Part shown: one piece after another, positions 55,137 to 59,167 of the stretch | Position numbering within the stretch: the stretch's first letter is position 1 | Layout: every line of letters begins with the position of its first letter | Source of the DNA: Paenibacillus sp. JNUCC32 | GTDB taxonomy: Bacteria; Bacillota; Bacilli; Paenibacillales; Paenibacillaceae | Direction: 5' to 3' | DNA: 64,000 nt | NCBI RefSeq assembly: GCF_014863545.1 | Contig: NZ_CP062260.1 | Coordinates: 3,472,001 to 3,536,000 of the forward strand | The notes under the pieces: model-generated | Databases searched by the model: none | The model's input: the letters and a program-made list of their open reading frames with translations, nothing else | Told to the model about the DNA's origin: nothing | Position numbers and translations under genes: made by a program

Positions 55137-55395
55137 GCTAACACCTCCAAATATTTATAAAAGTTAATTTACATAACCCATAACAATTGTATCATTTGGA
55201 TATTATTGGAGTATATAGTGTTTAAGGACCATTAAATGGTATAATTATGTATATTTTATTCCGGATTTATCTTTGTCAATTGTCGCATTTGTCCGGGCTA
55301 TTTATAGAATAGATGACATGACATTAATCCTACCATTCCTTCTCGCCTCTTTATTACATAGCCAAGCGCTATAATTCAGGTTAAGAGGTATTTCT

Positions 55396-55739
55396 ATGTT
55401 TATTGAACCGATGTTACTTGCTACAGCGCCCGCTCCATTCTCAGACTCGCATACGCGCGCCATAACAACGACTGTTCTCGCCAATATCCTGAGATAGCCA
55501 ACGCTATATTTCCGCATGACATCGTATTGGACGGCGAAATCGCGTGCGTTGATCCCGCGACTGGCAACTCGGATTTTAAAGCGGTTATGACACGAATCCA
55601 GGCGAAGAAGACGGATAAAATTACAGCTTTAGCCGGAACTCTGCCGTCTACATTCGTCATTTTCGACGTGCTGCAGTATAACGGCTACTTCACCGATAGA
55701 AGACAAAGAAAAAGGACCCCCGATAGCCTAAGCCGGTAG
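55396..55739 (+). pseudogene. ATP-dependent DNA ligase remnant
   Basis: The frame from the ATG at 55396 (AGAGGT upstream) reads MFIEPMLLATAPAPFSD, the N-terminus of LigD-type or Lig B-like ATP-dependent ligases. Another frame then gives RHNNDCSRQYPE and IVLDGEIACVDP, and later PSTFVIFDVLQYNGYF, all adenylation-domain motifs. The segment with the KxDG lysine that should lie between them is missing, the frame is shifted, and the domain stops after about 55700. Not functional as a ligase. Confidence 0.8.
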
Positions 55740-55801: not shown

Positions 55802-55909
55802 TTATACCCAGAAAGAACCTAAAATGATGACCAACAAGATAAAGAGAACAAGAACTGCTCCGACTGAGTTTTTACCGCCGTATCCACCTTCGTAACCAAC
55901 TTCACCCAT
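55802..55909 (-). CDS. YjcZ-family sporulation peptide
   Basis: 35-aa peptide starting MGEVGYEGGYGGKNSVGAVL and ending in a hydrophobic LLVIILGSFWV helix. This Gly/Tyr head with one membrane segment is typical of the YjcZ/SscA spore proteins. GGAGGAG lies before the ATG. A paralogue is encoded 0.6 kb away on the other strand. Confidence 0.85.
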   Translation of the reverse strand: MGEVGYEGGYGGKNSVGAVLVLFILLVIILGSFWV

Positions 55910-55985
55910 GAGGACTCCTCCTTTCAACGATCTCGATACAAAGTATTCAAAAACTCAAGCAATGCTAGGGCCAATATTCTTATTA

Positions 55986-56187: not shown

Positions 56188-56445
56188 AAAGAAGGAAACC
56201 TGAGTTGTAGTTGGCGGGCTACACTCTCATGTATATTCACAGAAATGCCACTTTGCTAATCATTTTCATATGTACATCATCCAAAAATACATAGGGGCTG
56301 CAACAACTCCCTCACGTTAAAAACTTCACCCAAGCAGCAATCGAGATAGGCTTGAAAATTAGGTTAAACACTTAGTTAATCACCCAAGCTTATACATAAG
56401 TGACCACATATTAATAATATGACTCTAAACAAAGGAGGAATAACC

Positions 56446-56547
56446 ATGAGCGCTGATGCCGGGTATGGCTATGGCCGTAGTGCTGCTTTTGTCTTGGTTC
56501 TGTACATTCTTCTCGTTATCATTTTGGCAGCAGGTTTTTGGATCTAA
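56446..56547 (+). CDS. YjcZ-family sporulation peptide
   Basis: 33-aa peptide, MSADAGYGYGRSAAFVLVLY then ILLVIILAAGFWI, with the same design as its neighbour at 55802-55909. AAAGGAGG is well placed before the ATG. The upstream region may carry a sporulation promoter (CATATTAATA near 56406-56415), which is only tentative. Confidence 0.85.
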   Translation: MSADAGYGYGRSAAFVLVLYILLVIILAAGFWI

Positions 56548-57771: not shown

Positions 57772-57796
57772 AAAAACCGGCGCCAACCGGCACCGG
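57772..57796 (-). terminator. Terminator of the agr-like cassette
   Basis: Minus-strand stem CCGGTGCC-GGTT-GGCGCCGG followed by TTTTTATT, 85 bases after agrD. Confidence 0.9.
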
Positions 57797-57881
57797 CTAC
57801 TACGACCCATATCTCATTCAACAACCATGAACTTACCACAAATTTGGTGTACCCCAGTCCCCGTATCAATTGGATCAAGAT

Positions 57882-58022
57882 TTATTTCAAAAGTTCTTCC
57901 GGCGTCTCTCCGCTATACACAAATACGGGACTTGCAGTATTAACGACAAATACGGCTACCAACGTCAGTGCAGATGCGATGAACGAAAAAAAACGATGAC
58001 GAATCTTATGGATCCATAACAT
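57882..58022 (-). CDS. agrD: AgrD-like autoinducer precursor without cysteine
   Basis: 46-aa peptide precursor. An amphipathic basic head (MLWIHKIRHRFFSFIAS) is followed by a hydrophobic stretch and the tail ASPVFVYSGETPEELLK, whose ETPEELLK matches the charged AgrD recognition tail (compare EVPKEL of Staphylococcus). The core expected just before SGETPEEL is S31-P-V-F-V-Y36. There is no cysteine, so a ring would have to be a lactone through Ser31. GGAGG precedes the ATG, and the gene overlaps agrB by 17 bases. Confidence 0.75.
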   Translation of the reverse strand: MLWIHKIRHRFFSFIASALTLVAVFVVNTASPVFVYSGETPEELLK

Positions 58023-58548
58023 GAGCTTGTCCTCCTTTCCAGCGTAATAAACTAATAGCCTGGATTAAAAATATGACAGCCAATGTTGGGGACTGAAGGA
58101 CAAAATTGAACATCACGATGAAGCAGCTAATCAAGCGGAGCTTAGAGTAATGCTTGCTCGGTATCCGGGATTGTCTCTCGATTCGGCTGGGAGCAAACAG
58201 CATAACCAGCAACAGACTAAGCGCATTCATAACGAGCACAGCTGCAATCCCCATATCAACGAAAGTCACCAAGGTAAACAGTGCTGTCGTGAACGCAATA
58301 CAGCCGGCCCCCGTCTTAAGGTGATACCCTCCCGAGAATTGCCTCAGTATTGCGAAGCCCGTCAAGGCTATGACCGCCTCTCTCACGTTACCCGAGAAGA
58401 TCGAAATCAGCAGCGTGAATACGACAATGAACATCACGTTGAATAGAATGGCGAGCGCGTGCTTCAAAACAGGAACGGAGGACGGATGATCAGGAACCTG
58501 ACGTTTGATCCTCTCCGCTATCCGCTCTGACAGTCCTTCTATGATCAT
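58006..58548 (-). CDS. agrB: AgrB-family autoinducer processing protease
   Basis: 180-aa polytopic membrane cysteine protease that trims and cyclises AgrD peptides. The catalytic pair is intact in RQFSGGYHLKTGAGC, His76 and Cys83, seven residues apart as in Staphylococcus aureus AgrB. About five or six membrane helices are seen. The ATG at 58548 follows GGGAG and overlaps the upstream gene by 59 bases. It is between the kinase-less sensor gene and agrD. Confidence 0.92.
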   Translation of the reverse strand: MIIEGLSERIAERIKRQVPDHPSSVPVLKHALAILFNVMFIVVFTLLISIFSGNVREAVIALTGFAILRQFSGGYHLKTGAGCIAFTTALFTLVTFVDMGIAAVLVMNALSLLLVMLFAPSRIERQSRIPSKHYSKLRLISCFIVMFNFVLQSPTLAVIFLIQAISLLRWKGGQAHVMDP

Positions 58549-59167
58549 AAGACTCCCGCTCCTCTGTATTGATGGCATAATACAAGAAGATTCCAAATGT
58601 GATTCCAAAGAAGAGAAGATGCAGCCACAGGCGGTTGAGGTAAAACAGAATGGCAATTAATATCAGCACTACGATAATTAAAGCGATCAACAGAACATGT
58701 TCAAATTTAATGCGCAGCTTCTCCAGGTCGTACTTAAACCCGATACCGAACCTGTACATCAACCAGGATATCAGCAGTCCCGTCGCTCCTGACAGAACTT
58801 GAAGGATGTAACCTTTGGCAGGATCGGTCTGAATGGCATTGATCGATCCGAACACCGTAGTCAAATAGGCGGTTTGAATCAACGCATAGAACATGTAGCC
58901 TATAATGGTGCAAATCGCCGACCAAATGACTGGAATTTTAATGATGGCCGAGAACAAGAACACAAAGATCATTACCGTAATAAGCGGGGCAAGAAAATCG
59001 AGCGAGAGTTCATTCCGCATGATGTAACTCTGTAGATTGGCAAGGATCATAACCAGCAGGGCTTGCCATATGTACTCCGTTGTTTTAAATCTAAGCAATG
59101 TCATGATCAGTGAATAAATCGCCAGTGTTTCAAAAGTCGAAAACACCATAAACCAAATAGCTTCCAT
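58490..59167 (-). CDS. Polytopic membrane protein, AgrC-like sensor part without kinase
   Basis: 225-aa protein with six or seven membrane helices (about residues 3-25, 32-50, 57-76, 79-101, 120-140, 155-175, 179-197) and a short polar tail ESYDHRRTVRADSGEDQTSG. The layout is that of the sensing half of AgrC-type kinases, but no HisKA/GHKL domain follows. The agrB frame begins inside its 3' end, so a kinase has not simply been cut off by a nearby stop. Possible roles are peptide receptor, export helper or immunity, all inferred. Confidence 0.65.
   Translation of the reverse strand: MEAIWFMVFSTFETLAIYSLIMTLLRFKTTEYIWQALLVMILANLQSYIMRNELSLDFLAPLITVMIFVFLFSAIIKIPVIWSAICTIIGYMFYALIQTAYLTTVFGSINAIQTDPAKGYILQVLSGATGLLISWLMYRFGIGFKYDLEKLRIKFEHVLLIALIIVVLILIAILFYLNRLWLHLLFFGITFGIFLYYAINTEERESYDHRRTVRADSGEDQTSGS

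Follow-up and report, generated by a model that had tools for sequence, protein, structure and literature searches.

The 64,000-nucleotide stretch of the Paenibacillus sp. JNUCC32 chromosome analysed here (the window; contig NZ_CP062260.1, positions 3,472,001 to 3,536,000) carries at 57882-59167 an agr-type cassette, composed of genes for a membrane protein that we call TM, the putative processing enzyme AgrB and the signal precursor AgrD. The preliminary description of this DNA had reported three overlapping minus-strand genes without the usual AgrC and AgrA, and both points stand: the coordinates of TM, AgrB and AgrD overlap, and at the locus examined neither an AgrC histidine kinase nor an AgrA receiver-domain regulator is encoded with agrBD. 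In most relatives a stand-alone LytTR gene completes the cassette, and this gene is absent from the window. We propose, at a probability of roughly 60%, that the window locus is a working yet truncated member of a kinase-less agr family, acting through the mechanism set out below.

The membrane protein and the signal genes

TM had been described as a protein of 6-7 helices with no kinase domain, and the present data agree. Comparison with Pfam gave no family above its cut-off and no kinase part in the protein, and AlphaFold2 predicted seven long helices (predicted local distance difference test, pLDDT, 81; predicted template modelling score, pTM, 0.78) with a poorly predicted, low-pLDDT loop at about residues 140-155. 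From the distribution of charges, this loop and the C-terminus would face the cytosol. Profile searches of the own genome returned a single match over the cut-off for each of TM, AgrB and AgrD. Within the genus, 71 of 100 genomes (the own genome among them) have a TM relative, 85 have AgrB and 65 have AgrD as judged by TIGR04223, while a wider TM profile reached 264 of 392 genomes of the order and 37 of 49 genera, with E values up to 1e-5. Among the matches listed, TM open frames span only 76-324 amino acids (aa), the shortest being fragments, so a kinase fusion is seen in none of them. The kinase-less agr cassette is a family and no oddity.

AgrB matches PF04647 with 69.3 bits (E 3.5e-19; cut-off 23). 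Its open frame spans 58006-58656 and the likely start is the ATG at 58548, giving 180 aa; numbered from this start the catalytic His76 and Cys83 are present, as had been stated. The 46-aa peptide matches TIGR04223 (40 bits, E 3e-10; cut-off 19), the AgrD family cyclic lactone autoinducer peptide, and it indeed contains no Cys. The spacing from ring to tail is the same in AgrD of Staphylococcus aureus and in the window AgrD. We took as ring position the residue eight places before the conserved tail residue and set aside the AgrDs of a second type (class II); nine further cases were unreadable or did not fit. Of the 72 readable AgrDs that remained, 70 have Ser at this position and two have Cys (L104 and L105; loci carry L numbers and genomes G numbers). 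This distribution supports the lactone at Ser31 that had been suggested and, with Cys so rare among the homologues, argues that the window AgrD is not a dead Cys allele. The ring itself is predicted from the spacing to the conserved tail to comprise five residues, Ser31-Val35 (SPVFV), and not the SPVFVY put forward earlier. Its consensus is mostly S-x-hydrophobic-Y/F-V/I, and SPVFV is identical in the window and L074-L079.

The class II AgrDs, 23 cases, lack Ser at the ring position (one has Cys) and carry an adjacent Lys in 23 of 23, which suggests a lactam or a linear product. They are found in L115 (two), L116-L118, L121-L123, L125-L129, L131-L133, L143-L145, L147, L148, L151 and L278, and the same Lys feature was seen by eye in the phages L303-L305.

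Table 1. Features of the TM-agrBD locus and their positions in the window.
Feature	Position	Strand	Basis
TM, first gene; 225-aa seven-helix membrane protein, kinase-less, receptor-like	58490..59167	-	
Proposed output loop on the cytosolic side, joining helices 5 and 6 (TM residues 139-157)	58697..58753	-	charges, low pLDDT, conservation
AgrB, processing and cyclising membrane peptidase (predicted function), His76 and Cys83	58006..58548	-	PF04647
AgrD precursor, 46 aa, no Cys	57882..58022	-	TIGR04223
Predicted lactone ring, Ser31-Val35 (SPVFV)	57918..57932	-	spacing to conserved tail
Intrinsic-terminator-like hairpin 3' of agrD, at the place of the LytTR gene in most relatives	57775..57798	-	

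A stand-alone LytTR partner in the relatives

Gene neighbourhoods were analysed in 80 stretches from the genus search, 20 from the order search and 31 named loci, which together with the window hold 121 TM genes; removal of 17 duplicates left 104 TM cases, and these loci were collected through TM similarity and share descent. AgrB, fragments counted, follows TM in 95 of the 104. L115 has two cassettes in tandem in one genome (8010-11611), and L119 is a 12-kb contig with the order AgrB-TM-LytTR, on which integrase-like and recombination-like genes were recognised by eye.

Of the 104 TM cases, six of which have stretches extending less than 5.5 kb on one side, 1 has a GHKL kinase within 5.5 kb, compared with 10 of 11 agrB loci without TM (L134-L142, L149 and L150), a hand-picked comparison set of which seven loci served to build the kinase profile and three of the remaining four match it. 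The LytTR proteins of these TM-less loci are 244-276 aa long and resemble, by eye, a receiver joined to LytTR. The homologue check that had been suggested for TM returned one linked kinase in 104 and no fusion among the matches listed. A kinase and response regulator attached in relatives had been named as a point that would count against a new type of system. This arrangement occurs in a single close relative, L083 of G096, whose TM-agrBD cassette retains a LytTR remnant and is followed downstream by genes for a response regulator and a GHKL kinase of 434 aa, and in no other of the 104 cases.

An all-against-all comparison of the neighbours revealed, besides AgrB and TM, one widely common same-strand protein of about 108-136 aa, encoded just after agrD, whose cluster spans 67 loci. 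Six of seven such proteins pass the Pfam LytTR cut-off of 22.6 and the seventh scores 22.4 bits; their length leaves no room for a receiver domain. The gene order in the relatives is TM-AgrB-AgrD-LytTR, and a stand-alone LytTR gene was found within 1.3 kb downstream in 77 of the 104 TM cases. In L094, L095 and L099 LytTR stands 27-37 bases after TM with no agrBD, so the pair of TM and LytTR persists there without the signal genes. Taken together, the LytTR neighbours, the kinase contrast and these agrBD-less pairs suggest that TM and LytTR form a unit that probably replaces AgrC and AgrA. The earlier choice between a receptor of a new type, an exporter and an immunity factor had overlooked this usual fourth gene, and the receptor is the best reading of the three. 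Among the papers listed by searches of the open-licence literature, none was found to describe agrBD together with both a membrane protein lacking a kinase and a LytTR regulator that stands alone. TM and LytTR are retained with agrB or agrD absent or broken in L094, L095, L099, L169, L170, L172 and L188; such strains are possibly listener-only, the broken cases being alternatively sequencing errors.

Many class I operons carry an upstream box at the place of the -35 element, followed by a good -10. A scan of 100 genomes for the pattern STATACG-N18-TATAATTA gave 30 exact matches, spread over 25 genomes; all 30 are 38-66 bases upstream of TM and 29 have LytTR inside the fetched stretch. A reversed-pattern control gave 6 matches; since the pattern was derived from these promoters, the informative part is the zero exact matches elsewhere. 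A box confined to TM operons fits autoregulation, with LytTR as the candidate binder. The window genome has zero exact matches to this pattern, and class II operons are preceded by a different conserved sequence. Direct repeats immediately 5' of the -35 element, a feature of the LytTR Regulatory Systems, gave, in most loci, no signal above shuffles.

The strictness of the box (30 of 30 at the operon alone, no outside target seen) would also suit a system in which AgrBD make a peptide for antimicrobial action or interference, with TM as its immunity or export factor and LytTR only as an autoregulator of production, as would the maintenance of TM and AgrBD without LytTR under purifying selection described below. 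A pair of TM and LytTR kept without AgrB and AgrD, as in L094, L095 and L099, would however be odd for immunity or export, and AgrB probably sets its product free without help, a further point against this reading. We consider such an antimicrobial role unlikely.

We propose instead a signalling mechanism with TM as the receptor. AgrB, by means of His76 and Cys83, would cleave AgrD after Val35 and close an ester ring between Ser31 and Val35, and the resulting lactone with its SPVFV ring would be exported and bind TM. In the relatives, binding of the signal would alter the hold of TM on the stand-alone LytTR protein via the loop that joins helices 5 and 6 on the cytosolic side, and LytTR would switch the promoter of its own operon, giving a positive loop without phosphate; such a scheme would join the signal making of agr with the logic of the LytTR Regulatory Systems. 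In the window clade, where LytTR is gone and signal and receptor are kept, the output may be a regulator in trans or none, the product then serving as signal or decoy only.

More tentatively, and at slightly less than even odds, we suggest that this represents a widespread phosphate-free form of agr, with a Ser-lactone pentapeptide ring and a seven-helix receptor in direct control, by retention or release, of a stand-alone LytTR protein that activates its own operon, possibly used by prophages, whose copies lie next to their CI, Cro and integrase genes, in the choice between lysis and lysogeny, and with the window lineage as a sender or decoy without output. If so, cyclic-peptide quorum sensing could proceed without a histidine kinase, the peptide, the membrane receptor and the DNA-binding protein being one direct switch, and the LytTR Regulatory Systems, about whose inputs little is known, would gain a dedicated encoded signal. 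It would also explain the orphan look of many agrBD loci of Paenibacillales, suggest a route of phage communication besides arbitrium, and be testable with small three- or four-gene constructs.

Probable LytTR loss and selection in the window's clade

A class I LytTR profile gave zero matches in the window genome (G000) and in G032, G065, G069, G051, G070, G062 and G004, and only weak matches to longer frames in G024, G031, G028 and G010, while the controls G085 and G046 gave strong matches. In G055 the profile matches LytTR of a different cassette in that genome, one of class II, and G096 retains a 37-residue LytTR remnant directly after agrD. On the TM tree (104 rows) the window falls in an 11-row clade without LytTR, with a support of 98, and the LytTR-bearing neighbours of this clade are L084, L085 and L086. 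At least 10 changes in LytTR presence are needed on this tree, 6 counting strong branches only, and the program warned of long branches. The absence of LytTR from the window clade looks like a derived loss.

The ratios of nonsynonymous to synonymous substitution (dN/dS) between the window and L074-L077 were 0.065-0.082 for TM, 0.11-0.17 for AgrB and 0.06-0.13 for AgrD, and against L078 they were 0.105, 0.19 and 0.12, respectively. For TM the values rose up to 0.19-0.20 against L080 and L081, where dS is saturated, and no dS value was obtained for TM or AgrB against L079 and L083. Judged by these ratios, TM, AgrB and AgrD of the window clade are under purifying selection despite the absence of LytTR. 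The conservation of loop 139-157 exceeds that of the rest of TM by a mean of +0.12 to +0.23 in LytTR-bearing pairs at 45-80% identity, against -0.11 to +0.09 within the window clade and an unclear 0.02 to 0.04 between LytTR-less lineages, the pairs being mutually non-independent. The disappearance of this excess in the window clade suggests that the loop is an output surface whose partner has been lost, with the rest of TM still in some role.

These data also bear on the reading that the cassette of the window no longer has a function and is what remains of a LytTR-type system in decay, for which the missing LytTR gene, the relaxed constraint on the loop and the retention of TM alone in L082 and L173 would speak. 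Nevertheless, dN/dS of 0.06-0.19 for all three genes against L074-L078, intact catalytic residues in AgrB and an SPVFV ring invariant in the window and L074-L079 are difficult to reconcile with decay, and we regard it as very improbable. Alternatively, TM of the window clade might control a regulator in trans, such as the LytTR-type protein encoded at C1:978589-978930 of the own genome (L156), which resembles the stand-alone type (21.5 bits against the cut-off of 22.6) and is identical in five clade genomes. This protein is, however, a core one, present in 95 of 100 genus genomes regardless of the cassette, and the output loop of TM is without extra conservation in the window clade, which makes such control quite unlikely.

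Elsewhere in the own genome, a LytTR gene at C1:2019418 (L155) is followed by genes for a short membrane protein and an ABC ATPase and resembles, by eye, a classic LytTR Regulatory System. In L282 a cassette resembling that of the window lies at the margin of a predicted prophage, and a LytTR protein of another type (147 aa; 2532-2975) is encoded 1.4 kb downstream, between the TM-agrBD cassette and phage-like genes.

Known systems, phages and neighbouring genes

The window locus shares with agrBDCA of S. aureus the His and Cys of AgrB, an AgrD made up of an amphipathic leader, a ring stretch and an acidic tail, and an adjacent membrane protein, but it has no AgrC kinase, no AgrA receiver and Ser for Cys at the ring, and in its relatives the regulator is a stand-alone LytTR protein. 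Although the AgrB peptidase and an AgrD with nucleophile (Ser, not Cys) and tail are in place, the window falls outside canonical agr for lack of kinase and receiver. Ser-lactone autoinducing peptide is known from Staphylococcus pseudintermedius, and the lactone gelatinase biosynthesis-activating pheromone from Enterococcus faecalis (PMC3673130); the window product is likewise predicted to be a lactone ring made by an AgrB-type enzyme, but here Ser is the rule (70 of 72 readable class I AgrDs) and the membrane protein is kinase-less.

The relatives resemble the LytTR Regulatory Systems HdrRM and BrsRM (PMC6193735) in combining a receiver-less stand-alone LytTR protein and a multi-helix membrane protein with no kinase, and in an operon promoter that is likely autoregulated. 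They differ in that TM is the first gene, agrBD lies between and the regulator gene is not upstream. TM may be unrelated to the membrane proteins of those systems, and inhibition of the regulator by TM would be a prediction. The passages found of PMC6193735 make no link to agr signals. The window itself lies outside these systems because its operon holds no regulator.

In IMG/VR, 21 contigs encode a TM relative, 20 of them with AgrB and 18 with a nearby LytTR match (of the other type in the case of L282). Next comes a small convergent XRE gene in 11 of 16 sufficiently long IMG/VR stretches compared with 10 of 104 genome cases, although the XRE profile was drawn from eight of these contigs and the independent count is 3 of 8. 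Neighbours on the inspected contigs include CI-like repressors, a Rha-type antirepressor and integrases. The cultured phages Abouo, Davies and Harrison (L303-L305) encode a membrane protein, AgrB, a small peptide and a product annotated 'peptidase'; the TM profile matches their membrane proteins (E 4e-27 or better for the one before agrB). Pfam identifies the 'peptidase' of Abouo and Harrison as LytTR; that of Davies scores below the cut-off (16.9 bits). In Davies two TM-family proteins stand in tandem before AgrB (L304, 3104-3763 and 3840-4508). The cassettes of predicted prophages (L287-L302 of IMG/VR) and cultured phages (L303-L305), with their repressor, antirepressor and integrase neighbours, are a candidate module for lysis-lysogeny communication, and all four genes were also found on one plasmid. 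The membrane proteins of Davies, Emery and Abouo were noted in 2014 as possible AgrC homologues without HATPase domain (PMC3901668). The phages share AgrB, AgrD and such a membrane protein with the window cassette, which is chromosomal and LytTR-less.

Close to the cassette, the fragments at 55302-55739 of the window resemble by eye a decayed gene with a longer relative in L080, which we take to be an ATP-dependent DNA ligase. Two very small Gly/Tyr-rich single-helix proteins, presumably of the YjcZ kind, are encoded at 55802-55927 and 56419-56547.
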